Of a DNA stretch of 35,610 nt, positions 8,409-21,293 are shown one piece after another; the stretch's first letter is position 1; each line of letters begins with the position of its first letter. Position numbers and translations under genes: made by a program. Origin of the DNA: Desulfobacterales bacterium (GTDB taxonomy: Bacteria > Desulfobacterota > Desulfobacteria > Desulfobacterales > JAHDSC01); NCBI GenBank assembly GCA_016931455.1, contig JAFGES010000088.1:1-35610 (forward strand), written 5' to 3'. Under the pieces are notes generated by a model. That model did no database searches. It saw nothing but the letters and a program-made list of their open reading frames with translations, and was not told the origin of the DNA.

Positions 8409-9713
8409 CTATTTCATAAAACTAGGTAGGAAGGTTATGATTCTCGGAAAAATCATCAGCATTAAAATGCAAATTATATAAGCCGGTAAAAAATAAGCAA
8501 CTCCTTTAAAAACATCCTCCAGAGGTACATCCTTGGCGATGGCTCCTACTACATAAGTGGTTGCCCCTACCGGGGGGGTAACCGCTCCTAGCGTCGTTAC
8601 AACTGTGATGGTGACCCCAAACCAAATGGGATCATATCCCAGTTGCATGGCTACGGGGAAAAAAATTGGAATGGTAATTAAAAGCAACGCCAAAGCATCC
8701 ATAATCGCACCACCCACAATATAAATCCCAAAAATAATGGACATGATGACCAAATTCGATACGGGAAGTCCAACCACCCACGAGGCAATATCAAAGGGAA
8801 TCCGTGTGACTGCCAGGAATCGACCAAATATAACCGCACCCGCAACAATGGTTATCACCATACATGATACCTGCAAAGTGTCTCTTATCGAGGCAACAAA
8901 TCCCTTCCAGGTCAGCCGGCCTTGCGCTAAACTGATGGCTACGGCGAGAAAAGATCCGGCGGCACCGGCTTCGGCCGGTGTAAAAAATCCAAAATAAAGT
9001 CCCAGCATGACTATCAAAAAAAGAGTCCCCATTTCAAAAGCACCGGAAAGAGATTTCAGCTTATCTTTCAAACCGGTTTTAGGCCCTACAGGGCCCCAAT
9101 GAGGCTTGAATCGGCATAACACATATATGCTGATCATTAAAAGTACGGATAGAACTACACCGGCACCGATGCCACCGTAAAAAAGCCTTGCAATAGATTG
9201 TTCGGTTGAAAGGCCGATTACAATTAGAACCACACTAGGTGGAATGACAACACCCAGCGTAGATCCGCAGGCCACAGCACCGGTGCTGAGCATCGCATCA
9301 TATTTGTACTTTTTCATCTGAGGTAGAGCAACTGTTGTCATGGTCGCAGCAGTAGCTGCATTCGAACCGCAAATCGCTGAAAAAGCTGAGCAAGCCAAAA
9401 CAGTAGCCATTGCAATTCCACCACGGATATGACCGATCCATTGGTAAGCCGCATTATACAATTTTTCATTCACACCCGAATAAAATGCAATTTGTCCCAT
9501 AAAAATAAAAAGAGGAATAACGGTCAGGCCATATTGAGAGAAGGTAGACCATAAAACCGAACTGATCATGTTGAGCCCGGCTTTGAATGAAACTACGGAG
9601 CAAAATCCGATAAATCCGACAACTCCCATGGCAAATCCAACCGGCATACCCAGAAAAAAAAGTACGAGCAAAAGAGCAATGATCCCTATGATTCCAATGG
9701 CGGCTAGACTCAT
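8409..9713 (-). CDS. dctM: TRAP transporter large permease subunit
   Basis: DctM is the 12-segment cation-coupled permease of tripartite ATP-independent periplasmic transporters. At 434 residues it has the usual length. It is hydrophobic throughout, with family blocks such as FLGMPVGFAMG, SAICGSNAATAATM and TPPVGATTYVVG. I chose the ATG at 9713, preceded by the strong ribosome site AAGGAGAGG; it overlaps the dctQ stop by one base (TGATG). An upstream in-frame start would add 24 hydrophilic residues not seen in the family. It is the last gene of the ior-paaK-dct operon. The genes in front suggest an aryl acid or 2-oxo acid substrate. Confidence 0.93.
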   Translation of the reverse strand: MSLAAIGIIGIIALLLVLFFLGMPVGFAMGVVGFIGFCSVVSFKAGLNMISSVLWSTFSQYGLTVIPLFIFMGQIAFYSGVNEKLYNAAYQWIGHIRGGIAMATVLACSAFSAICGSNAATAATMTTVALPQMKKYKYDAMLSTGAVACGSTLGVVIPPSVVLIVIGLSTEQSIARLFYGGIGAGVVLSVLLMISIYVLCRFKPHWGPVGPKTGLKDKLKSLSGAFEMGTLFLIVMLGLYFGFFTPAEAGAAGSFLAVAISLAQGRLTWKGFVASIRDTLQVSCMVITIVAGAVIFGRFLAVTRIPFDIASWVVGLPVSNLVIMSIIFGIYIVGGAIMDALALLLITIPIFFPVAMQLGYDPIWFGVTITVVTTLGAVTPPVGATTYVVGAIAKDVPLEDVFKGVAYFLPAYIICILMLMIFPRIITFLPSFMK

Positions 9714-10201
9714 CACAACCTCTCCTTGTTTGAAAATAGGGACCTTAACAATTCCGTAAAAAAAACAAAAGCAACTACGGCGCAACCTAAAGCCACAGCA
9801 TAAATGAAAGGATAATAAATAATTCTCAGAGTTTCTGTAACTTCTCCGGTCTTTCTAAGCGTTTCGGCCAATTTTACGATCTGCCAAGCGGCAAGTAAAA
9901 AGAAAGACAAGCAAATCGTACTGTTTATGACTGTTAGAAATCTTCTTGTTTTATAGGAAAATTTATTTATTAAGACATTTACGGCAATATGTCCTCGATT
10001 CATTTGGGTCTGACCTAGAGCTAATGCAGCTACCATAGCCCCCAAAAACCCCATTAATTCAAAAGTTCCCCTGACCGGTGTCCAAACCCAACGCGAAAAT
10101 ATATTGGAACAAGTCAAAATAATCATACCGACTAATAAGATACCACCTAAAGAAATTAGTACCCTGTTTAGATAGAGACTTATTTTTTCTAGAGTTTCCA
10201 A
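9713..10201 (-). CDS. dctQ: TRAP transporter small permease subunit
   Basis: DctQ is the four-helix membrane subunit that partners DctM. The protein has 162 residues with four hydrophobic segments (about 14-36, 48-66, 86-108, 128-150). The family feature SRWVWTPVRGTFELMGFLGA is present. The start is a TTG, supported by the strong ribosome site AAGGAGGAA about 8 bases upstream. The stop overlaps the dctM ATG by one base. Confidence 0.9.
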   Translation of the reverse strand: METLEKISLYLNRVLISLGGILLVGMIILTCSNIFSRWVWTPVRGTFELMGFLGAMVAALALGQTQMNRGHIAVNVLINKFSYKTRRFLTVINSTICLSFFLLAAWQIVKLAETLRKTGEVTETLRIIYYPFIYAVALGCAVVAFVFFTELLRSLFSNKERL

Positions 10202-10295: not shown

Positions 10296-11318
10296 TTATT
10301 TAAAATATTTTTTAACAAGAGCCATGATATCCTGCACAATCGCCTCTGCGGGTAAATCTTTTTTCTGGGCATCTTGAATCCATTTATCCGTAATGGGCTT
10401 GAGCATATTATCCCACCGCATTTTTTGTTCCGCCGTAAGATATATAAATTCAACATTATATTCTTTTTTGGACCAATCCATAGATTCTTTTACATGATTA
10501 TCCATGTAGTTTCCCGTCCATTCGGCCTGCTCGGTGCTCATACCATCAAACACTTTCTGAACATCTTCCGGCAAAGAATTCCAACTTTCCAAATTCATCA
10601 CCACCGCAAATGGGTAAATAACCGTGTTCGTCATGGTTACAAATCTGCAAAGTTCGGCAAATTTGTAATCTTTCATGACTTCAATCGAAGAAAATAAGCC
10701 CTGTACCACACCTTTCTGCAAGGCCTCCGGTGTTGCCGACATCGGCATTCCTACTTGATTGGCGCCCCATGCTTTGAGGATCTGCGCGGCACCCCCCGAC
10801 GCTCTGAGATCTAGCCCTTTAATATCATCAATATTTCTTACAGGCTTGGAAGACATTATATTTGATGGCGCCGTCGTGAACATGGTTAAAACTTTGACCT
10901 TAGCAAAGGCTTCCGGTTTATATTTATTATAAAGATCCCATAACACCCTACTGCCGACTCCGGCATCGGGTATTCCCAGCGGCAGGCTGGTAGCATTGGT
11001 GACCACGAATCTGCCGGGTTGATAGGCCATGCATAAACAACCGATATCAGCCTGGCCGGCTATGACACCGTCGAACATATTTTTAGCATCAAGCAGCGTA
11101 CCACCCGGAAACGTATTAATAACAACCTTTCCATTCGTACGTTTTTCGACTTCATTCTTCCAACGCTCCATCTGCACACAGGGAAAAGTTGGAGCAGCCG
11201 GAAAATTGGCATAATTGAGCTGGATTGGTCCTGCCGTGACCGGTGTCGGCACCCCGACCCATATAAAAACGATAAATGCAATACACCCTATAAGAAGCTG
11301 CCTTAATTTTTTTTTCAT
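10296..11318 (-). CDS. dctP: TRAP transporter substrate-binding protein
   Basis: This is a periplasmic solute receptor of the DctP family. It has 340 residues with a Sec signal peptide: KKKLRQ, a hydrophobic core to about residue 25, and an Ala-type cleavage site near 29 (VTA). The family arginine that binds the substrate carboxylate lies in GLDLRASGG. The ATG follows the strong ribosome site GGAGGT. The gene lies 62 bases behind paaK in the same orientation. With iorAB and an aryl-CoA ligase upstream, the ligand is plausibly an arylacetate (indole-, phenyl- or hydroxyphenylacetate) or an arylpyruvate; no residue seen here proves this. Confidence 0.92.
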   Translation of the reverse strand: MKKKLRQLLIGCIAFIVFIWVGVPTPVTAGPIQLNYANFPAAPTFPCVQMERWKNEVEKRTNGKVVINTFPGGTLLDAKNMFDGVIAGQADIGCLCMAYQPGRFVVTNATSLPLGIPDAGVGSRVLWDLYNKYKPEAFAKVKVLTMFTTAPSNIMSSKPVRNIDDIKGLDLRASGGAAQILKAWGANQVGMPMSATPEALQKGVVQGLFSSIEVMKDYKFAELCRFVTMTNTVIYPFAVVMNLESWNSLPEDVQKVFDGMSTEQAEWTGNYMDNHVKESMDWSKKEYNVEFIYLTAEQKMRWDNMLKPITDKWIQDAQKKDLPAEAIVQDIMALVKKYFK

Positions 11319-11380: not shown

Positions 11381-12673
11381 TTATACATTACCGTTTCTAT
11401 GATCAAAAACCCGCTGAATTTTTCGCTGAGTACGCGGTAAAAAACCATGCTCGACAATTTCAACCTGACTCCGTACCAGTATCTTGCGTCGAATCTCGGT
11501 GGATATCAGCTCAGACAAACTCGCATCATCATCCTTTCGACCGGCCATTTCCCTTTCCACCCGGACAAGCATCATGTCACGACCATTTTCTTTATGCTTG
11601 AGATGGATTTGATATTCGCTTCCGATCCCCTTTATTTGACTCAGCACATGATCGATCTGGCTTGGATAAATATTTACCGCCCTATAAATAAACATATCAT
11701 CCGTACGTCCTAAGATTCTGTCGTGTAAGGGATACGGAACCCCGCAAGGACAATTGTGATCCAAAATACGTGTTAAATCGTGAGTTCGATAACGAATCAA
11801 CGGACTTGCTTCTTTATGCAAGGTGGTGACCACCAGTTCCCCTTCTTTGCCGTGTGAAACCGGTTTTAATGTTACCGGATCGATTATTTCGAAAATAAAG
11901 TAATCAGACCAATAATGAATTCCATTATGCTGCAAGCAATCAATTCCGGTACCCGGCCCATATAGCTCGGTTAATCCATAAATATCGAAGATATGTTCCA
12001 CCCCCATCAGTTCCTTTATCCGTGTGCGCATTGCATCACTGCAGCGTTCGGCACCCAGAATAATTTTTTTTATCTTTATTTTGGAAACTAAATTACGTTT
12101 ATCGATTTCTTCCGCCATCAGCAGTGCCATCGATGCAGTTGAACAAAATACAGTGGCTTCCATATCAACCATCATTTCACAATGCATTTCCGCATTAGCA
12201 GGACCTATCGGTATAGCCATAGCTCCTAACCTCTCGCAGCCGGCTTGAAAACCGACACCAGCAGTCCACAAACCATATCCCACTGCGATCTGCACACGAT
12301 CTTCAGGGGTTACACCTGCAAGCTCATAGCAGCGGGCAAACATTTCCGCCCATAAGTCGACATCTTTCTTGGTATAACATATTACCTTTCGCTTACCTGT
12401 GGTACCCGAAGACGCATGAATTCGTGTAATCCGGTCAAATGGTACCGCACGCAGAGGAAAGGGATATTCATTCTGTAAATCAACTTTATCTGTAAAAGGA
12501 AGCGCGTGGATGTCATTTAAATTCTGAATATCTTGTGGCTGGATACCTGCCTCATTTAATTTTTTCCGATAGAAGGGAGAATTTTTGTGGGCATGTGCAA
12601 TTGTCCATTTAAGCCCATCGAGTTGAATTTTTTGCAATTTATCGTCAGTCAAATCATAAGCAATAAAACTCAT
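11381..12673 (-). CDS. paaK: Phenylacetate-CoA ligase family protein (arylacetate-CoA ligase)
   Basis: This is an AMP-forming acyl-CoA ligase that makes aryl-acetyl-CoA from arylacetate, ATP and CoA. The 430 residues match PaaK. The ATP-binding loop reads ASSGTTGKRKVICYT; the usual Pro after Gly-Lys is replaced by Arg. The motifs DIYGLTELYGPG and YRTHDLTRIL and the C-terminal hinge (DRILGRTDDMFIYRAVNIYPSQID) are present. The ATG has the ribosome site AAGGAG six bases upstream. It sits 24 bases after iorB. Genomes often place this ligase with IOR, where it may recycle aryl acids. Specificity (phenyl-, indole- or hydroxyphenylacetate) cannot be read from the sequence. Confidence 0.9.
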   Translation of the reverse strand: MSFIAYDLTDDKLQKIQLDGLKWTIAHAHKNSPFYRKKLNEAGIQPQDIQNLNDIHALPFTDKVDLQNEYPFPLRAVPFDRITRIHASSGTTGKRKVICYTKKDVDLWAEMFARCYELAGVTPEDRVQIAVGYGLWTAGVGFQAGCERLGAMAIPIGPANAEMHCEMMVDMEATVFCSTASMALLMAEEIDKRNLVSKIKIKKIILGAERCSDAMRTRIKELMGVEHIFDIYGLTELYGPGTGIDCLQHNGIHYWSDYFIFEIIDPVTLKPVSHGKEGELVVTTLHKEASPLIRYRTHDLTRILDHNCPCGVPYPLHDRILGRTDDMFIYRAVNIYPSQIDHVLSQIKGIGSEYQIHLKHKENGRDMMLVRVEREMAGRKDDDASLSELISTEIRRKILVRSQVEIVEHGFLPRTQRKIQRVFDHRNGNV

Positions 12674-12697: not shown

Positions 12698-13279
12698 TCA
12701 AAAAAAATTATATCCTGCTTCAATCGCTTTTAAAGAGGCATCCAGCTTTTCTTTTGCTGAAGTCGTCATGTTTTCTTTTGGTCGACGATTTTGCAAAACA
12801 GTCTTTATGTCCTCTACTGAACAAAACATACCTCTTTTTGCCTCCGAAATTTTTGGGATTACGCCTAAAGCAAAACCTAATAGAATAAGATTAACCGCCT
12901 TTGGATTGCCGATTTTCCGAGCAAGATGATCCGCATTTACAGAAAATAAAGGGCCGTCATATTTGGGTTTCAAATCATAATCACTGTTGACTACAATCCA
13001 TGCCCCTTTTCTTAAAAAATAACCGTGCTGATCAAAGTTTTCAGCTTTCAATGCCAGCAGGCCATCAGCACTCAGGGGGCGTATCAATGGACTGTAAAAA
13101 TTACCAATCTTGAGATGTGATACAACCGTTCCGCCCCTTTGGGCCATTCCGTGTGTTTCTGAAGTAAAAACCGACATCCCTTTGAGAATAGCCGCTTCCG
13201 CCAGAAGGCGTGTGATAAAGAGTATCCCCTGACCGCCGACACCGCTAATAACAATCTGATGTGTCATGGCTTGACTCAT
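12698..13279 (-). CDS. iorB: Indolepyruvate:ferredoxin oxidoreductase beta subunit
   Basis: IorB is the gamma-type domain subunit of IOR, which interconverts arylpyruvate + CoA and aryl-acetyl-CoA + CO2 with ferredoxin. It has 193 residues. The hallmarks are VISGVGGQGILFITRLLAEAA and TSETHGMAQRGGTVVSHLKIG. The ATG overlaps the iorA stop by four bases (ATGA), with the strong ribosome site AAGGAGG inside the iorA end. A second ATG four codons in is possible. Confidence 0.94.
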   Translation of the reverse strand: MSQAMTHQIVISGVGGQGILFITRLLAEAAILKGMSVFTSETHGMAQRGGTVVSHLKIGNFYSPLIRPLSADGLLALKAENFDQHGYFLRKGAWIVVNSDYDLKPKYDGPLFSVNADHLARKIGNPKAVNLILLGFALGVIPKISEAKRGMFCSVEDIKTVLQNRRPKENMTTSAKEKLDASLKAIEAGYNFF

Positions 13280-15114
13280 AAATCCTCCTTACTCTCGATG
13301 CTCTTATTCCTCGATTTTATGGAATGCTTTGGGCATACCTGAATGCAAACACCACACTGATTGCAAAGCAAGGCATCGATATGAATGCGTTTTTGATTTT
13401 CGTCTAGAAGAAGTGCCGGGCAACCAAAATGATCAATACAATAACCGCATCCGTCACAACCATTTGTTACTTCAACCGGTATTGGCCGTTTAAGTTTATT
13501 TTTTTGCAATTCATCAATTAGGCAAGGATGTCTTGCTATTAAAACCGAAGGACCATTATTCTTGCTGTAAGCTAAAGCTTGCTTCAACAATAATGTCAGT
13601 TTATTCATTTCGTAGGGATCCACCTCATGACAAAATTTTACTCCACATCCTCGAACAAGCATCTCTATATCAACGGTCTCAAGCGGCTCCCCCTTTACCC
13701 CGATTCCGGTCGCAGGTGTGGGCTGATTCCCCGTCATAGCCGTTGTTCGATTGTCAAGAATCACGACAACAATTGGGACTTTTTGGACAACTGCATCAAT
13801 TAACGCCGGAATGCCGGCATGAAAAAATGTGGAATCACCAATTGTCGCCACAATATCGGGCGGTTTAGGTTCATCTTTATAAGCCTGATAAAACCCTTCA
13901 GCCTGGCTGATAGCCGCCCCCATACAAAGAACGGTATCAACAGCCCCGAGGTTTAATCCAAGTGTGTAACATCCAATATCGCTTGTAAGTATGCCTTTTG
14001 GTACCACTTTCTTAATAGCGAAAAAACTGGCTCTGTGTGGACATCCGGCACAAAGCGTAGGGCGACGGTCGGAAGCCGATGGGTGAAGAACCGGTTGTGA
14101 TTTGATGCCGACAAATCCACAAACTATCTCCTGTATAATTTCCGGCAGCAGCTCACCCGCTTCAGGTACCGTTTGGGTAAGTTTACCTTTTACACGGTGC
14201 CGATCAGCTATCTGCATCTCAATTACACCGGTGGTTTCTTCAATGACTAAAACTTCATCATAGGTTTCTATAAGATGGGAGATAAATTGTTTGTGTAAAG
14301 GATAGGGTTGCAAAACCTGATAGATGGGAATAGCTTCCCACAAGTTCAAATCCTTTATGACTTCTTTTGTATGCGACGCTGCTATGCCGGATACGACAAT
14401 CGCTCTGCGTGAATTTGTTTTCGAATTAAGCCGAACCGGTGCGGTTGCCGGGTAAGCAGAAATAGCCGAAAGCTTTTTCCCCAGCTCTTTGTGCAAATGG
14501 TAACGAAATTTCGGGGTAGCCGCCCAGCGGGTGGGATTCTTTTTAAAATCGGCTTGCCTTTTAAAGTCATGAATGTCCTCTAATTGAATATCTTGACGAG
14601 CATGGCAAACCCTTGTAGTCGGACGCAGCATTACCGGTATTTCAAATTTTTCTGAAAGATCATAAGCCAAAGTCACCATATCCTTCGCCTGCCGAGGAGA
14701 ATCCGGGTCAAGAACAGGGATCATTGCCATCATTGCCATCAATCGACTGTCCTGTTCCGTTTGTGAAGAATGGGGTCCGGGATCATCCGCGCTAATCACT
14801 ATAAATCCACCCTTTGAACCCATATATGCAGCACTCATAAGAGGATCGGAGGCTACATTTAACCCCACCTGCTTCATACTGACTGCGGTTCGCAAACCGG
14901 CTATACTACCTGCATAAGCAATCTCAAAAGCGACTTTTTCATTAACAGCCCATTGAATATGCATTGACTTTTCACGACTCTGTTGAAAGTAAGCAAGCGA
15001 GGAAAGAATTTCAGAAGCAGGCGTACCGGGATATGACGTTGCAATGGCACAACTATTTTCCTGCAACCCTCGTGCTATGGCTTCATTACCCATCAATAAT
15101 TTTCGTTTATCCAC
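13276..15114 (-). CDS. iorA: Indolepyruvate:ferredoxin oxidoreductase alpha subunit
   Basis: IorA is the large, TPP-binding subunit, with 612 residues. The N-terminal pyrimidine-binding domain begins LLMGNEAIARG and has SYPGTPASEI. The TPP domain has CAGCPHRASFFAIKK and the Mg-TPP loop GDSTFFHAGIPALIDAV. The C-terminal ferredoxin-like domain (CDGCGYCIDHFGCPAL and CNQCGVCIQVCP) holds two [4Fe-4S] clusters. The start is GTG with GGGGAGA seven bases upstream. It is the first structural gene behind the Trp-rich leader, about 57 bases downstream of the attenuator terminator. The reaction is reversible; the leader suggests the reductive-carboxylation direction (inferred). Confidence 0.95.
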   Translation of the reverse strand: MDKRKLLMGNEAIARGLQENSCAIATSYPGTPASEILSSLAYFQQSREKSMHIQWAVNEKVAFEIAYAGSIAGLRTAVSMKQVGLNVASDPLMSAAYMGSKGGFIVISADDPGPHSSQTEQDSRLMAMMAMIPVLDPDSPRQAKDMVTLAYDLSEKFEIPVMLRPTTRVCHARQDIQLEDIHDFKRQADFKKNPTRWAATPKFRYHLHKELGKKLSAISAYPATAPVRLNSKTNSRRAIVVSGIAASHTKEVIKDLNLWEAIPIYQVLQPYPLHKQFISHLIETYDEVLVIEETTGVIEMQIADRHRVKGKLTQTVPEAGELLPEIIQEIVCGFVGIKSQPVLHPSASDRRPTLCAGCPHRASFFAIKKVVPKGILTSDIGCYTLGLNLGAVDTVLCMGAAISQAEGFYQAYKDEPKPPDIVATIGDSTFFHAGIPALIDAVVQKVPIVVVILDNRTTAMTGNQPTPATGIGVKGEPLETVDIEMLVRGCGVKFCHEVDPYEMNKLTLLLKQALAYSKNNGPSVLIARHPCLIDELQKNKLKRPIPVEVTNGCDGCGYCIDHFGCPALLLDENQKRIHIDALLCNQCGVCIQVCPKHSIKSRNKSIESKEDL

Positions 15115-15170: not shown

Positions 15171-15209
15171 AAAAAAGCCACGGCTTCCGGAAGAAGACCT
15201 GGCTTTTTT
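15171..15209 (-). terminator. Intrinsic terminator of the ior leader
   Basis: On the minus strand, AAAAAAGCCA (15209-15200) pairs over 10 bp with TGGCTTTTTT (15180-15171). Two further GC pairs follow inside past a bulged G at 15181, and the apical region contains the self-complementary CTTCCGGAAG. The 3' arm is a U-tract, as in a Rho-independent terminator. It lies between the leader peptide and iorA, so it must be read through for the operon to be expressed. It is the off-state structure of the proposed attenuator. Confidence 0.8.
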
Positions 15210-15323
15210 AGGACTTAATGAGCCATGAGCAACTTCCACGCCTTTCGCTGAAACTTCTCACGACTCTGAATTTTCTATTTTTTTATTCAGCAGGGGTGAG
15301 CAAGCTTCATGGCTTGTACCACC
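15200..15323 (-). promoter_or_regulatory. Tryptophan attenuator: mutually exclusive leader hairpins
   Basis: Four overlapping pairings can be drawn on the minus-strand RNA. Hairpin A (15295-15323: CACC/GGTG plus GCTTG/CAAGC) overlaps the last Trp codons and the leader stop. Hairpin B pairs 15296-15300 with 15257-15261, plus a 6-bp inner stem 15285-15290/15266-15271; it competes with A. Hairpin C pairs 15257-15266 with 15220-15229 (10 bp, two G-U) and competes with B. Pairing D joins 15221-15225 to 15200-15204, which is the 5' arm of the terminator; it competes with both C and the terminator. A ribosome stalled on Trp codons frees the B segment. B then blocks C, C's 3' arm pairs as D, and termination is prevented. 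A ribosome at the stop codon covers the B segment, so C and the terminator form. The pairings are read by eye. Confidence 0.75.
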
Positions 15324-15345
15324 ACCACCAAAATATATGTTTCAT
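15307..15345 (-). CDS. Trp-rich attenuator leader peptide
   Basis: A 12-codon ORF encodes MKHIFWWWWYKP, stop TGA. Four consecutive Trp codons are flanked by Phe and Tyr, so six of twelve residues are aromatic. The ribosome site GAGG (plus-strand CCTC at 15351-15354) lies about 5 bases before the ATG. It is followed by competing hairpins and a terminator ahead of iorA. The size and the MK-IF opening resemble trpL of enteric bacteria. This is what a ribosome-stalling sensor of charged tRNA-Trp looks like. It has no product role of its own. Confidence 0.85.
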   Translation of the reverse strand: MKHIFWWWWYKP

Positions 15346-15587: not shown

Positions 15588-17081
15588 TCACTCCGAAAAG
15601 CGGCTCTCCAATAGATATTTGACAACTTTTTTATCTAATTTTCCTTGCTCAGCCTCCTGAGAAAGAATTTTGAAAGCATTTTTCTGGTTCATACCTTTCC
15701 GGTAGGGACGATCCGTGATGAGGGCATCATAAATATCAGCTACAGACATTATCCGAGCTACCATAGAAATTTCATTCGCCGTCAAACCATCCGGATAGCC
15801 ACTGCCATCCAGCTTTTCATGATGATGTCGAATAATATCCAGCGCAATGCCTAAATTTTTTTGTAAAGGTAAACAAATCTTGTAACCGATATACGGGTGG
15901 GCTTGCATAATCTCCCATTCTTGACGGTTAAGCGGTCCAGGTTTATTTAGTATCTCTCCCGGCACGCCAATTTTACCGATATCATGCAAAGCACCTCCAA
16001 ATTTCAGAGCTTCGATCTCTTTCGGCGACAGCCCCATCTTCCAACCCAGCATTATTGCCAAATTTTTCACCCGCTCAATATGACCTTTTGTGTAAGAATC
16101 TTTGGCTTCAACAGCCTGCGCCAGAGAAAAAATAACATTTTCAAAACTGGTTAGACTATTGTTGAGTTTTTTTAAATTGATCAATGAATTCGTTCTGGCG
16201 ATTAATTCCATTTTATTGGGTGGCTTCGTAATAAAATCGTCTGCACCCGCTTTTATTCCCTCAACCTTTGCATCAGTATCGTTTAAAGCAGTTACTAGAA
16301 TTACCGGAATCATGCGGGTGGTCTCTTTTTGTTTTATCCTCCGACAAACTTCGAAACCATCCATACCCGGCATCATAATATCCAGCAACACTAAATCCAC
16401 ATCGACTTTTGAAACCAGTGCAAGGGCATCTTCGCCGTTAGTTGCCTTGATGACTTCAAATTCGAGAGGAATAAGGAAAGCTTCCAGTAATTTTAAATTA
16501 AGAGGTTCATCATCAACAATCAGAACTTTTGATCTTGATGAATCAGCATACTTTATTTCGTTTTCAAAGAAATAAACACTGTTTTTGCCTTTAAGTTTGG
16601 CCATGCATAAAGCATCCTGCGCCCTCTGAATTAGTTTTTCTTTATTTTCACCGTGAATCGGATAAGCGGCAAGGCCGATACTAACCGTCAAATTCGATCG
16701 ATCGGATTCCTCAACCGAACACCTAATACGTTCGGCTGCGCGAAGTGAGGTGGATAGCTCGGATTCTGTTAAAATAACGGCAAAAACATCACCGGAATAT
16801 CTTGCAGCCAAATCCACGTTGCGGATATTAGCATTGATCACGTTTGCAATTTCTTTTAGCGTGAGATCCCCTTTTAAAGGGCCATATCGCCTATTATAGT
16901 AACAAAATGAATCGATATCGATCATGAATAGGGTAAAATTACCCCCATAACGTTTGGCCCTGCTGATTTCGCGCTCAAGGGCAATTTGGAAAAAACCATT
17001 GTTAAATAGGCCGGTAAGAGTATCGGTGAAAGGTACGCCGACCTCCTTTTCGTAATTTAACTCTGCTTGTATATCAGCCAT
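15588..17081 (-). CDS. GGDEF-like / REC / HD-GYP response regulator
   Basis: The protein has about 497 residues in an unusual order. Residues about 15-170 are GGDEF-like, but the signature reads SGDVF, lacking the final Glu, so cyclase activity is doubtful. Residues about 185-305 are a receiver domain (VLIVDDEP, phospho-acceptor Asp in LVLLDIMMPGMDG, Lys in ITKPP). Residues about 320-495 are an HD-GYP phosphodiesterase with intact GALHDIGKIGVP and HHHEKLDGSGYPDGL, so c-di-GMP hydrolysis is likely. I chose the ATG at 17081 behind AAAGGGTGA; a TTG at 17108 would add nine residues. It is the last gene of the signalling cluster, downstream of a histidine kinase that may phosphorylate it. Confidence 0.87.
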   Translation of the reverse strand: MADIQAELNYEKEVGVPFTDTLTGLFNNGFFQIALEREISRAKRYGGNFTLFMIDIDSFCYYNRRYGPLKGDLTLKEIANVINANIRNVDLAARYSGDVFAVILTESELSTSLRAAERIRCSVEESDRSNLTVSIGLAAYPIHGENKEKLIQRAQDALCMAKLKGKNSVYFFENEIKYADSSRSKVLIVDDEPLNLKLLEAFLIPLEFEVIKATNGEDALALVSKVDVDLVLLDIMMPGMDGFEVCRRIKQKETTRMIPVILVTALNDTDAKVEGIKAGADDFITKPPNKMELIARTNSLINLKKLNNSLTSFENVIFSLAQAVEAKDSYTKGHIERVKNLAIMLGWKMGLSPKEIEALKFGGALHDIGKIGVPGEILNKPGPLNRQEWEIMQAHPYIGYKICLPLQKNLGIALDIIRHHHEKLDGSGYPDGLTANEISMVARIMSVADIYDALITDRPYRKGMNQKNAFKILSQEAEQGKLDKKVVKYLLESRFSE

Positions 17082-17177
17082 GACAGATGATTCACCCTTT
17101 CTTTTCAAAACACATCTTTATTCTTAATCAACGGGCCTATGCAGGTATTGCCAAAATCAAACAGTCGCTTACTTCAG

Positions 17178-18818
17178 TTAAACAGGAATTATAAAGTTAA
17201 ATTTGCTTCCCTTGTTTTCTCCTTCGCTAGTCGCCCAAATCTTACCTCCATGCAATTCGACCAATCTTTTTGTAAGCGAAAGACCCAAACCTGTGCCTTG
17301 ATACATTCGACTCGAAGAACCATTCGCCTGTTCAAAAGGATCAAAAATTCTCCGCTGATCCTCCGGTTTAATTCCGATACCTGTATCCTCTACTGATATT
17401 TCTAAAAAACCGTTATGAACGATTGTGGGCGGTTTATTTGACAGAGACAAATCAATTTTTTTCCCATCCGATATAATACATTGGTTATCATCGAAAAAGG
17501 CATGGCGAGCGGTAAGAATGATCGAACCATGATCGGGTGTAAATTTAACCGCATTGGCAAGAAGATTGTATAGGATTTGCTTCAACTTACGTTCATCCGC
17601 ATTTATCGTTGTGGGAATATTATCGCAATGGCATTTTGTTTGGATGGAATGTTTCATGGCCTTTTCTTTTATCATGACCAGGCTATTTTTTAAAAGCGCC
17701 TCTAATTTAACCACCGTGGTATTAATTTCCAATTTACCTGCTTCTACTTTTGAAAGATCTAGAATGTCATTTATCAATGAAAGCAAATGCCGGCTGCTTT
17801 GTAGTACATCACCCAAATATTCTTCCTGTGTTTTATTCAATTCTCCAAAATGTTTATCTGCTACCAATTCGGTAAAACCGATGATGTGATTTAAAGGCGT
17901 ACGCAGTTCATGGCTCATATTCGCTAAAAACATTGACTTCGAACGATTCGCAAATTCGGCGACTTCTTTGGCCTTTTTTAGATCCATTACTGCGCGTCCA
18001 AGATCTTTGTTGGCCTTCAATATTTCAGAAGTCCTTAAATTAACTTCATTTTCTAACTGCTCACGATTATTTTCCAGTTTCTGGTCGCGTAATTGAATTT
18101 GAGTCAGCATGGCATTAAAGCCATCAATAAGGATTCCCAACTCATCATTCGTTTGCTTTTCAGCCCGGATTGAATAGTTTTTCTCATCTGAAACAATTTT
18201 CATCGTCTGAGTTAGATATAATATGGGTTCGAAAATTATACCTCTGAACTTGGACGAAAGTATGTATGCCACACATATGGAAGCCAGCATGACTGTCGCA
18301 CTAACCGAAACATACAAACATAGACGGGAATATAGCTCATTTAAATTTGATCGCAAATAAACAACGCCGATGGATTCACCATCGAAAACAATATCTTTAA
18401 ACAGATTCAAATACCCCTTCTCATAGTAATAACCATTTCTAACCCCATCGGATGCTTTTATATTCTTGTTATCTAAAGGTGAAGGCATTAATATTTCACT
18501 ATTCTCTCTTCCAATGTGATATTTCGCAAACAATTGGCCTGCTCGGGTATAAATTTGTGCCGCGATCACGTTTGGGTCCGCTTTCAATGCTTCAAGCGTT
18601 TCTTCTGCGGCTTTCTGGTCGTTGAAGGTCAGTGCCGCGGTACTGTTGGACCCGATAACTTCCGCTAAAGTCGTTAGATTCTCCACCATGGTTTGTCGAA
18701 ATGTAAGTAGATCATTAATAACAAAAGATGCACAAGCGAGAAACAGTACAATAATGCTTGTCAACATAATGATAATTGTAAGCTTTTGCTTAATAGAAAT
18801 ATTTTGAAATAACTGCAT
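17178..18818 (-). CDS. Membrane histidine kinase with CHASE8-like sensor and HAMP
   Basis: The protein has 546 residues. The N-terminal membrane segment is about 12-33. The periplasmic domain (about 35-165) carries TLAEVIGSNSTAALTFNDQKAAEETLEAL-type features typical of CHASE8, the sensor found on YfiN/TpbB diguanylate cyclases. A second membrane segment is about 168-190. HAMP follows (about 191-245), then a coiled coil (about 245-290), HisKA with the phospho-acceptor His in SHELRTPLNHIIGF, and an HATPase_c domain with DTGIGI and GTGLGLSL. It probably autophosphorylates and passes phosphate to the REC proteins encoded either side. The YfiR-like gene directly upstream, only 20 bases away, is the likely periplasmic partner of the sensor. 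Confidence 0.9.
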   Translation of the reverse strand: MQLFQNISIKQKLTIIIMLTSIIVLFLACASFVINDLLTFRQTMVENLTTLAEVIGSNSTAALTFNDQKAAEETLEALKADPNVIAAQIYTRAGQLFAKYHIGRENSEILMPSPLDNKNIKASDGVRNGYYYEKGYLNLFKDIVFDGESIGVVYLRSNLNELYSRLCLYVSVSATVMLASICVAYILSSKFRGIIFEPILYLTQTMKIVSDEKNYSIRAEKQTNDELGILIDGFNAMLTQIQLRDQKLENNREQLENEVNLRTSEILKANKDLGRAVMDLKKAKEVAEFANRSKSMFLANMSHELRTPLNHIIGFTELVADKHFGELNKTQEEYLGDVLQSSRHLLSLINDILDLSKVEAGKLEINTTVVKLEALLKNSLVMIKEKAMKHSIQTKCHCDNIPTTINADERKLKQILYNLLANAVKFTPDHGSIILTARHAFFDDNQCIISDGKKIDLSLSNKPPTIVHNGFLEISVEDTGIGIKPEDQRRIFDPFEQANGSSSRMYQGTGLGLSLTKRLVELHGGKIWATSEGENKGSKFNFIIPV

Positions 18819-18838
18819 CCGTTCTTCTTTCTTTAAAC

Positions 18839-19390
18839 TTAGCTTTTAACGATCTTTGCCATTTTTAATAGATGAGAGCTAATTTTCAAGCCGGCGTGAC
18901 GGGCTGAATCGATATTAATTTCAAAACGAATCTTATTATTAATAACAATGAATTCGATGATACCTCCAAGGCTGGTAAATTCAGCTATATCACTGACGGT
19001 TAAAACCGGCCGATCTTTGATATCCGTTAAGATCTGCTTCGCCTCTTTTTCCATAGATCTGCTGATGAAAAGGATATGGCATTTCGAATGATCCTTAGCG
19101 TGCTTCGATGTTTCAACAAGCAGTTTCCGGCCATCGACCGTCTTATTTTCGATAGACTGAATGACATCGTCATCAAACGGATTTTTACCAAGAATACAAA
19201 GATAAATGGGTGCGTGCTCATCTTCAAAAACTTCGATAGGCCAATCTACAAACTTGGCAAAATTATACAAAAAAGCCGCCTTAACCAAATACTCGCGATA
19301 CAAAACCGAATCCGCATATGCATGGGTTTCAAATAGAAGCATAAGACCTATCGATACTTTAATAAAAAGTTTATAGCCTTTAACAAGCAT
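18839..19390 (-). CDS. YfiR-family periplasmic protein
   Basis: The protein has 183 residues with a signal peptide (cleavage near 26, AYA-DS), then the DUF4154/YfiR fold: LVKAAFLYNFAKFVDWP, CILGKNPF, KCHILFISRS and a C-terminal strand-rich part with INIDSARHAGLKISSHLLKMAK. YfiR in Pseudomonas and E. coli is a periplasmic inhibitor of the CHASE8-HAMP-GGDEF protein YfiN. Here the next gene carries a comparable sensor fused to a histidine kinase, suggesting that YfiR controls phosphorylation rather than a cyclase directly. It has a modest ribosome site (AAAAGG, about 9 bases). Confidence 0.87.
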   Translation of the reverse strand: MLVKGYKLFIKVSIGLMLLFETHAYADSVLYREYLVKAAFLYNFAKFVDWPIEVFEDEHAPIYLCILGKNPFDDDVIQSIENKTVDGRKLLVETSKHAKDHSKCHILFISRSMEKEAKQILTDIKDRPVLTVSDIAEFTSLGGIIEFIVINNKIRFEINIDSARHAGLKISSHLLKMAKIVKS

Positions 19391-19511
19391 TTAGCGGGCC
19401 TTTTAATAATCAGAGAATATATAAAAAATATTACTCTTTAATTTTTCGAGCAAGCGCTCGCTTTTATACCTAAAATTGAACAAACAGCCTTTCACGTTCA
19501 TTATCAAATAT

Positions 19512-21293
19512 TTATTGATAAACATAAACCCTATCTTTTCCATCTTTTTTGGCTCTAGAAAGCATGATAGTGGCTTGCTGAATTAATTCTTCAATATCGG
19601 AAGCATTTTCAGGACAAACGGATATTCCCATACTGATCGTAATTTTGCCGGCCAATGGGGATGTTTCTTGCAAAAAAAGGTGAGATCCAACCAACTTTCG
19701 AATTGTTTCAGCAAGATTAAATGCTCGTTCCCTATCTGTATAAGGCAAAACCAATGCGAATTGCTCACTTTCATAACGAGCCGCTAAATCGATCTCTCTA
19801 ATGTTCATTTTTAAAATCTGCGCTAACTCACGTAACAAAAAATCACCTGCCAAGTGCCCGGCGCTATCGTTGTATTGCTTAAAGTCATCAATATCAGCCA
19901 TAATAACAGCAACAGAATATTTTTGGCTAATTGATCTTTTTAGCTCAAGAGTCAAAAACCGCTTAAAATATAAATAATTGTACAGTCCGGTTAAACTGTC
20001 GCTATTGACTGAATTAAAAGCATTCTCATAATGCAAATAAAGCTTCTCTATATATTTTCTTTTCTTTAATAAAATATTTGCCCTTGCTTTTAGCTGTCGA
20101 CGGTCAACCGGTTTGATTAAAAAATCATCCGCGCCGAGTTCAATTCCCTTGATTCTGCTATCCATATCTTCCAAACCGGTAATAAAAATAACCGGAACGT
20201 TTCTGATCTCACCTATTTTTTTTAGACGTCTGTAAAGATCAAAACCGTCCATATCCGGCAAAACAATATCAAGTAGAATCAGATCGAGTTCTTTCTCTTT
20301 GGCCAAAGTTATCGCCTCTTCTCCGTTTTTAGCACGAATGAGCTGGTAGGGCTGCTCTTTCAAATAGATTTGAATGAGTTTTGCATCCGTCTCATTATCT
20401 TCCACCAAAAGTACTCGGAACATATCTTTTTCATTATTAGTAGACATATCCGATCCGGATTTGATCATAATTTGCTCCTCGGATTGTACTCGTATCGTTA
20501 ATTGCTCTTGATATTGCTTCATTCGAAGTATGGAATTGATTCTCGCCAAAAGCTCTGTTGCATTCACCGGTTTGCTCAAAAACTCATCGGCACCCGCTTC
20601 TGCTCCTTTTAATTTATCCTCTTCACTGTCCAGAGCCGTAACTAAAATGATGGGGATATTTTTCGTGGCAGAATCACTTCTCAGTTTCTTGGTCACTTCA
20701 TAACCATCCATGTTCGGCATCATAATATCAAGTAAAATTAAGTCCGGACATTCGTTAGCCACCTTTTCCAAAGCTACCGACCCATTTTCGGCCCTGATGA
20801 TTTCATAATCGCTTTCGGGGAGCATGGCTGCCAATAATTTGATATTCAACGGCTCATCATCGACAATCAAAATTTTGTTTTTATAAGTAGACGTTTTGTA
20901 ACTACCTTTATCTTTTCGCTCATCTTTTATTAGAAATTTATTTACGGATTTTATAAAAGAACGAGTATCAATCGGTTTGGATATATAACCATCACAACCT
21001 GCTTCTAAAGCTTTTTTATCATCACCTTCCATAGCATATGCAGTAAGAGCAACAATGGGTATATCCTTGAAGATGGGATTCGCCTTTATTTCCCTAGTGG
21101 CACACAAACCGTCCATTCCCGGAAGTTGAATATCCATTAGGATGAGGTCCGGCTTGTTCCGGCCGATTAACTCAATACCACTTTCAGCGTCCATGGCCTC
21201 AAGGACTTTGTATTTACTTAAATGGAGCAAACTTCTGACTAGCTTCATATTCACTTCATTGTCTTCGATTACCAAAATGTTTCTACCTATCAT
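19512..21293 (-). CDS. Triple-receiver response regulator with degenerate GGDEF domain
   Basis: The protein has 593 residues. Three receiver domains are seen at about 4-122, 137-258 and 288-408. Each keeps its phospho-acceptor Asp (MDIQLPGMDG, LDIMMPNMDG, LDIVLPDMDG) and the later Lys. Residues about 430-593 are a GGDEF fold (DSLTGLYNY, MADIDDFKQYND, ITISMGISVCP), but the signature loop is ESEQF, so it is probably catalytically dead. The ATG has the ribosome site GGGGAG. It heads the four-gene signalling cluster and may act as a phosphate sink or scaffold for the adjacent kinase. Confidence 0.87.
   Translation of the reverse strand: MIGRNILVIEDNEVNMKLVRSLLHLSKYKVLEAMDAESGIELIGRNKPDLILMDIQLPGMDGLCATREIKANPIFKDIPIVALTAYAMEGDDKKALEAGCDGYISKPIDTRSFIKSVNKFLIKDERKDKGSYKTSTYKNKILIVDDEPLNIKLLAAMLPESDYEIIRAENGSVALEKVANECPDLILLDIMMPNMDGYEVTKKLRSDSATKNIPIILVTALDSEEDKLKGAEAGADEFLSKPVNATELLARINSILRMKQYQEQLTIRVQSEEQIMIKSGSDMSTNNEKDMFRVLLVEDNETDAKLIQIYLKEQPYQLIRAKNGEEAITLAKEKELDLILLDIVLPDMDGFDLYRRLKKIGEIRNVPVIFITGLEDMDSRIKGIELGADDFLIKPVDRRQLKARANILLKKRKYIEKLYLHYENAFNSVNSDSLTGLYNYLYFKRFLTLELKRSISQKYSVAVIMADIDDFKQYNDSAGHLAGDFLLRELAQILKMNIREIDLAARYESEQFALVLPYTDRERAFNLAETIRKLVGSHLFLQETSPLAGKITISMGISVCPENASDIEELIQQATIMLSRAKKDGKDRVYVYQ

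Follow-up and report, generated by a model that had tools for sequence, protein, structure and literature searches.

The window (the whole 35,610-nucleotide stretch analysed here, from the genome, of 3.38 Mb in 133 contigs, of a sulfate-reducer-type bacterium of the Desulfobacterales) carries on its minus strand an operon with the gene order iorA-iorB-paaK-dctP-dctQ-dctM. Its first gene, iorA (13276–15114, with a GTG start at 15114), encodes the alpha subunit of indolepyruvate:ferredoxin oxidoreductase (IOR; TIGR03336, 656.6 bits vs. a cut-off of 650.9), and is followed by iorB (12698–13279) for the beta subunit (2-oxoacid oxidoreductase gamma-type; NF004916, 210.9 bits vs. a cut-off of 227) and by a paaK-like gene for an aryl-CoA ligase (11381–12673; NF041878/TIGR02155 families), the latter two being clear assignments though below the equivalog cut-offs. 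The remaining genes specify a TRAP importer, i.e., the solute-binding protein DctP (10296–11318; NF037995, 103.3 bits vs. a cut-off of 50), a DctQ-like small permease (9713–10201; without an NCBIfam match, and assigned from its operon position and from syntenic homologues beside dctP and dctM), and the large permease DctM (8409–9785; TIGR00786, 298.1 bits vs. a cut-off of 268.45). A second iorA of the same genome, on another contig, is 37% identical to the iorA of the window and has no Trp leader of the kind described below.

Upstream of the operon lies a cluster (15588–21293) with genes for a TOL_0243-family YfiR-like protein (18839–19390), a sensor kinase (17178–18818) and two PleD-like response regulator/GGDEF proteins (15588–17108 and 19512–21293), which is probably a c-di-GMP signalling unit. 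No convincing promoter was found for the operon (three sigma-70-like sites vs. 1.3 expected).

The leader frame and its conservation

Ahead of iorA, the minus strand holds a 12-codon open reading frame (15345–15307; ATG AAA CAT ATA TTT TGG TGG TGG TGG TAC AAG CCA TGA) that encodes the peptide MKHIFWWWWYKP and ends in a TGA stop. It is preceded by a putative ribosome-binding site (5′-GAGG-3′, 15354–15351), 5 nt upstream of the ATG, and contains four consecutive Trp codons (15330–15319), hereafter referred to as segment 0. An earlier note on this DNA had described this leader, its ribosome site and its Trp run, and direct reading of the sequence bore the description out. The region thus offers what a ribosome-mediated attenuator has: a short predicted frame, a ribosome site upstream of it and repeated codons for a single amino acid. 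It is the only short frame in the whole window with four Trp codons in a row; no such run arose in 100 first-order Markov simulations of the window (0.0 expected), and even three Trp codons in a row were expected only 0.12 times.

The counterparts of this leader in related genomes are widespread. Around 30 of 76 related iorA loci, from many genera of the order, carry a Trp leader upstream of iorA, and the conserved Trp-codon run that the earlier note proposed looking for is therefore present. At about 24 of the 76 distinct loci the frame has at least three Trp per six codons and lies within ~310 nt upstream of iorA, a further handful have frames with two Trp, and no recognisable Trp leader precedes over half of the iorA homologues examined across the order. 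In the 1.2 kb beyond the proximal ~310 nt, Trp-rich frames are rare (about seven over all 76 loci). The nearest named relative with iorA (a Desulfobacterales MAG, 71% identity) has the leader MKIKLWCWWGQKS at the same place. The distance between the last Trp and the stop codon is nearly constant across these genera (nearly always two to four residues), and Trp is the sole constant residue of the homologous leader set.

This last point bears on which amino acid would be sensed. In the window, the Trp run is flanked by Phe on its N-terminal and by Tyr on its C-terminal side, as had been pointed out earlier, and IOR and PaaK-type ligases generally take several aryl substrates, so that a genuine attenuator responding to Phe and Tyr besides Trp could be envisaged. 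The flanking residues, however, vary freely among the homologues (L, F, Y, N, C or S before the run and R, Q, H or P after it), and the same genome has a separate Phe/Tyr-rich leader in front of its shikimate genes. While the presence of Phe and Tyr in the window stands, sensing of several aromatics is unlikely and was dropped because the flanks are not conserved.

Some loci depart from the common pattern. One element (L010), situated ~250 nt upstream of iorA, has kept its hairpins and lost the Trp leader, with a long inverted repeat (ATTATGGGTAAGAAAGG...) in its stead, and looks like a decayed or re-purposed attenuator. At several other loci (L027, L032, L036, L037 and others), the match of the iorA homologue extends past one in-frame stop codon and possibly runs beyond the natural gene end.

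Alternative pairings of the leader RNA

Downstream of segment 0, the leader RNA contains five further segments on the minus strand that can pair in a chain. Segment 1 (UGAAGCUUGCUCACC, 15309–15295) starts at the stop codon of the leader, in the window as in the aligned leaders, and can pair with segment 2 (GAGUCGUGAGAAGUUUCA, 15266–15249), which alternatively pairs with segment 3 (UGGAAGUUGCUCAUGGCUC, 15238–15220). Segment 3 has a second partner in segment 4 (15209–15189), with which it forms a putative antiterminator (3:4), and segment 4 is itself the 5′ arm of an intrinsic terminator (4:5) whose 3′ side is made up by segment 5 and the adjoining U-tract (15188–15170). The core of helix 1:2 joins 5′-CUCAC-3′ (15300–15296) to 5′-GUGAG-3′ (15261–15257), helix 2:3 joins GAGUCGUGAG (15266–15257) to CUCAUGGCUC (15229–15220), and helix 3:4 joins 5′-UGGCU-3′ (15225–15221) to 5′-AGCCA-3′ (15204–15200). 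The terminator 4:5 is a bulged stem (15209–15171) with seven U residues at 15176–15170, upstream of iorA. The hairpins are thus mutually exclusive, and one of them is an intrinsic terminator ahead of the first structural gene. A generic terminator scan missed it because its stem is bulged; its support comes from folding and from covariation.

These pairings and the U-tract terminator before iorA had been named before and proved correct letter by letter, but the earlier description was incomplete. Helix 1:2 in its full extent counts 13 bp (15309–15296 with 15261–15249), helix 3:4 has a second block (5′-GGAAG-3′ at 15237–15233 with 5′-CUUCC-3′ at 15193–15189), and the Trp codons themselves can pair with segment 1 (helix 0:1). 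For the untranslated RNA of the window, folding pairs most Trp-codon bases with segment 1 at a probability above 0.9. The leader region as a whole folds at –60 kcal/mol, compared with –41.6 ± 4.0 kcal/mol for dinucleotide shuffles (z = –4.7; 0 of 200 shuffles as low).

Conservation of the helices was examined in an alignment of 17 leaders and in one of 41 covariance-model matches, and covariation of all four stems, which the earlier note had put forward as a check, was found in the former and again in the latter. Counting helix 0:1, the alignments reveal five helices that exclude one another. Across the 41 sequences, standard pairs occupy 95.7% of cells in helix 1:2 (5 pairs changed on both sides), 97.5% in 2:3 (6 pairs), 84.8% in 3:4 (6 pairs) and 91.0% in 4:5 (9 pairs). 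Since the covariance model (R1), which was built from this leader, encoded helices 2:3 and 4:5 only, fitting gave no advantage to 1:2 and 3:4 in these counts. Sliding the partners by 1–3 columns reduced pairing to 21–63%. In 500 column shuffles, the pairing percentage, the number of doubly changed cells and the covariation score stayed below the observed values for every helix, while 54 (1:2) and 67 (3:4) of the shuffles equalled or exceeded the real count of doubly changed pairs; owing to the relatedness of the sequences, these figures are not to be read as probabilities. Where 5′-GUGAG-3′ in segment 2 has changed to 5′-GUGGG-3′ or 5′-UUGGG-3′, segments 1 and 3, both of which it has to match, have mostly changed with it. 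Compensatory changes therefore keep all four alternative pairings (1:2, 2:3, 3:4 and 4:5). Helix 0:1, between the Trp codons and 5′-CACC-3′ of segment 1, has 96% of its cells paired but is invariant, so that covariation is silent on it.

The same alignments weigh on two other accounts of the hairpins. The same-strand gene upstream ends at 15588, and the U-tract hairpin might be no more than its terminator, next to a Trp-rich frame that arose by chance. A plain terminator, though, needs no mutually exclusive helices, and the covariation of 1:2 and 3:4 contradicts it, as do Trp runs conserved at a fixed place in many genera and clustered close to iorA; we give this account hardly any credence. 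Direct recognition of tRNA-Trp or of an aryl acid, by a T-box or some other ligand-binding riboswitch in which the Trp-rich frame plays no part, is also highly improbable. Such a riboswitch could well show conserved structure and alternative terminators ahead of transport and salvage genes, but the conserved core of the leader is made up solely of complementary arms, and the Trp frame keeps a fixed distance from segment 1. Moreover, the leader yielded no Rfam match at the gathering threshold or at E ≤ 1, although Rfam does hold T-box models, and the T-box reading was dropped. By the same search the element belongs neither to the Rfam Trp_leader family nor to another Rfam family, and would work like a Trp leader outside them.

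Hairpin 2:3 has a U-tract of its own behind it in 31 of the 41 relatives, but none in the window. Judging from this arrangement, hairpin 2:3 may itself terminate transcription in those 31 relatives, which would then have two tandem terminators under one relay, with the window having kept the second only. Conversely, two relatives (L039 and L042) seem to retain only the first.

Ribosome position and the proposed switch

The effect of a ribosome on the leader was modelled by masked folding, in which the RNA ended with segment 4 and the masked footprint extended 12 nt past the A site. With the first Trp codon in the A site, segment 1 lies outside this mask; with the stop codon there, segment 1 is covered. 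With the ribosome stalled at the first Trp codon of the window, helix 1:2 formed with a probability of 0.94 and 3:4 with 0.69, and 2:3 was lost (0.00); with the ribosome at the stop codon, 2:3 reached 0.99 and 3:4 fell to 0.00. In the ribosome-free RNA, the predicted helices are 2:3 and 4:5. On stalling, 1:2 forms in most of the 17 sequences, whereas a few switch weakly and one (L054) does not switch. The relay proposed in the earlier note, in which stalling at Trp codons frees segment 1 and completion of the peptide reverses this, was thereby reproduced in silico. When the 3′ arm of the terminator is included, equilibrium folding favours 4:5 in most cases and states, and the switch therefore has to be kinetic. 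A kinetic rather than an equilibrium decision is normal for attenuators.

Taken together, we put the probability at roughly 90% that this element is a ribosome-mediated transcription attenuator that senses the supply of charged tRNA-Trp and controls an aryl-acid salvage operon composed of a TRAP importer, an aryl-CoA ligase and IOR. Such a switch very probably turns the genes on under tryptophan shortage. When charged tRNA-Trp is scarce, the ribosome would stall on the Trp run and cover segment 0, leaving segment 1 free to form 1:2; segment 3 would then be released to pair with segment 4, blocking 4:5 and allowing the operon to be transcribed. When Trp is ample enough for the peptide to be completed, the ribosome at the stop codon would cover segment 1, so that 2:3 could form, segment 4 would remain free and 4:5 would terminate transcription. 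On an untranslated leader, helix 0:1 would hold segment 1, with 2:3 and 4:5 forming and the operon staying off. In the relatives with putative tandem terminators, 1:2 plus 3:4 would disarm both 2:3 and 4:5.

Regulon, metabolic direction and related systems

Model R1 was searched against 291 genomes of the order, and the genes behind the matches were then read. The element precedes iorAB, mostly with paaK and often with dctPQM, but also paaK without iorA (nine loci, L120 among them), dctPQM alone (one locus, with genes 66, 51 and 74% identical to the TRAP genes of the window), trpB2 (L114 and four further loci) and a combined trpB2-iorAB-paaK-dctPQM cluster (L135/L146). At L120 and L136, paaK behind the attenuator is followed by genes for LivG/F-like ATPases and a Liv-type binding protein with no TRAP genes, and these are probably an alternative aryl-acid importer. 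The leader of L114 has in-frame TGA codons at the position of the Trp run (MIKKKRRNG*WQGW*), which may reflect decay, an assembly error or something else. Weak R1 matches (E ~1e-8 to 1e-4, checked on a sample) were set aside as being mostly other aromatic attenuators (before trpE, trpD or shikimate genes) rather than copies of the element.

Further aromatic leaders occur in the genome of the window itself. Its trpB2 (contig C32, gene at 36469, within 34000–39000) is preceded by the leader MILHCWWWQMTK with hairpins and a U-tract, which is absent from the R1 match list. Its trp operon (contig C8, 43500–54500, minus strand) has the leader MKKTKQTILKTCDRNKWWWQAYSQRFADAIAVF and two tandem terminator hairpins before trpE and is thus equipped with an attenuator of its own; Trp-run leaders precede trpE in relatives as well. 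On contig C15 (3000–8400, minus strand), a Phe/Tyr-rich leader with tandem terminators precedes an archaeal-type shikimate cluster (2-amino-3,7-dideoxy-heptulosonate (ADH) synthase, dehydroquinate (DHQ) synthase II and prephenate dehydratase), and similar leaders precede shikimate clusters at four other loci (L122, L123, L128 and L129). The trpE, trpB2 and shikimate leaders of this genome and order likewise combine an aromatic codon run with terminator hairpins, often in tandem. Nevertheless, the trpE and shikimate leaders differ in sequence and match R1 weakly or not at all, and clear homologues of the element are limited to trpB2 leaders in some relatives.

Another group of the phylum (L154, L157, L160 and L166) has a different and simpler Trp attenuator before iorA, with the leader MGRKQWTFWGWWWWNNQGGEVCP and its relatives, containing WGWWWW and ending in GGEVCP. 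Here a single hairpin serves as terminator and competes with the tail of the leader frame. The ior genes are therefore under Trp attenuation in at least two forms.

The company that the element keeps also helps to decide in which direction the enzymes run. IOR and PaaK are usually filed under the degradation of aromatic amino acids or phenylacetate, and TRAP transporters import organic acids, so a catabolic leader of the tnaC type, in which excess Trp stalls the ribosome and turns on IOR for the degradation of Trp or aryl-pyruvates, had to be considered. TnaC relies on a single critical Trp with a set spacing, whereas the present leader has a Trp run shortly before its stop codon and lacks that spacing. 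Furthermore, the same RNA lies upstream of trpB2, trpE in this genome and its relatives is preceded by Trp-run leaders, and the anatomy of the element yields antitermination on stalling at the Trp codons themselves in masked folding. Induction by excess Trp is thus very unlikely and was dropped in favour of attenuation responding to Trp shortage.

Genes that are switched on under Trp shortage should supply Trp, which implies that the operon makes tryptophan from scavenged precursors rather than degrading it. Together with the presence of trpB2 in the same regulon, such induction would place IOR and PaaK in the biosynthetic (aryl-acid salvage) direction, and the gene set of IOR, ligase and TRAP importer is compatible with Trp supply from aryl acids. 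Based on this regulatory logic and gene company, IOR and the ligase most likely run reductively, from an arylacetate (e.g., indoleacetate) via its aryl-CoA to a 2-oxoacid and on to the amino acid, the final step presumably being a transamination; the substrate may be indoleacetate, phenylacetate or others. Since the genome has a trp operon of its own, salvage would add to de novo synthesis. The regulatory logic thereby gives a direction to enzymes whose direction sequence cannot tell, and suggests indoleacetate, other arylacetates or indole as candidate substrates for the TRAP- and Liv-type importers behind the switch.

A broader reading, which we regard as evenly poised, is that one order of Desulfobacterota has a Trp-starvation regulon, with one attenuator class placed before importer, ligase, IOR and trpB2 in varied combinations, in which a single decision on ribosome position disarms two tandem terminators. 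If true, operons pairing IOR and PaaK with a TRAP or Liv importer would exist for building Trp from scavenged indole compounds, the new class of structured RNA would be a means to find such regulons, and one relay with two terminators would provide a simple natural system for how attenuators reach low basal read-through.

Ribosome-mediated attenuation is textbook knowledge. As far as can be told, the combination of sensed amino acid and operon, the regulon, the tandem-terminator relay and the RNA family are new. The earlier note knew of no described Trp attenuator before ior genes, and a literature search (on Trp attenuators before ior, on Desulfovibrio/Desulfobacterota and on tandem terminators) found none either, which is weak evidence of absence as subscription journals were thinly covered. 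To our knowledge, a double lock in which one decision governs two tandem terminators has no precedent among ribosome-mediated attenuators.

In layout, the element corresponds to a ribosome-mediated attenuator of the his type, but one that would sense Trp. Like the his attenuator of Salmonella and E. coli, it has consecutive control codons overlain by a pause-type hairpin, and a chain of mutually exclusive hairpins (PMC1183508), and the proposed order of events is the same. It differs in having Trp instead of His codons, in preceding a salvage operon and in that segment 1 starts at the stop codon. In the his attenuator, an extra hairpin between the pause hairpin and the terminator is believed to limit basal read-through (PMC1183508), whereas the extra hairpin here (2:3) has its own U-tract in most relatives and resembles a first terminator.

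For the metabolic side, a parallel is offered by Methanococcus maripaludis, in which aryl acids are precursors of the aromatic amino acids and the indolepyruvate oxidoreductase subunits MMP0713 and MMP0714 are discussed (Porat et al., cited in PMC4162585). That pathway likewise joins aryl acids to indolepyruvate oxidoreductase, but it belongs to an archaeon and, in the parts of PMC4162585 bearing on it, comes without mention of a Trp attenuator, whereas the enzymes of the window are tied to a TRAP importer and to putative Trp attenuation.

Finally, the element shares with E. coli trpL the Trp codons in a short leader peptide and a stalled ribosome that leads to antitermination. In trpL, with its four arms, the stalled ribosome masks arm 1 and the antiterminator is 2:3, whereas the six chained arms described here would leave segment 1 free on stalling and reach the antiterminator 3:4 via 1:2. 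Moreover, while trpL controls de novo synthesis, the present element would control aryl-acid and indole salvage.
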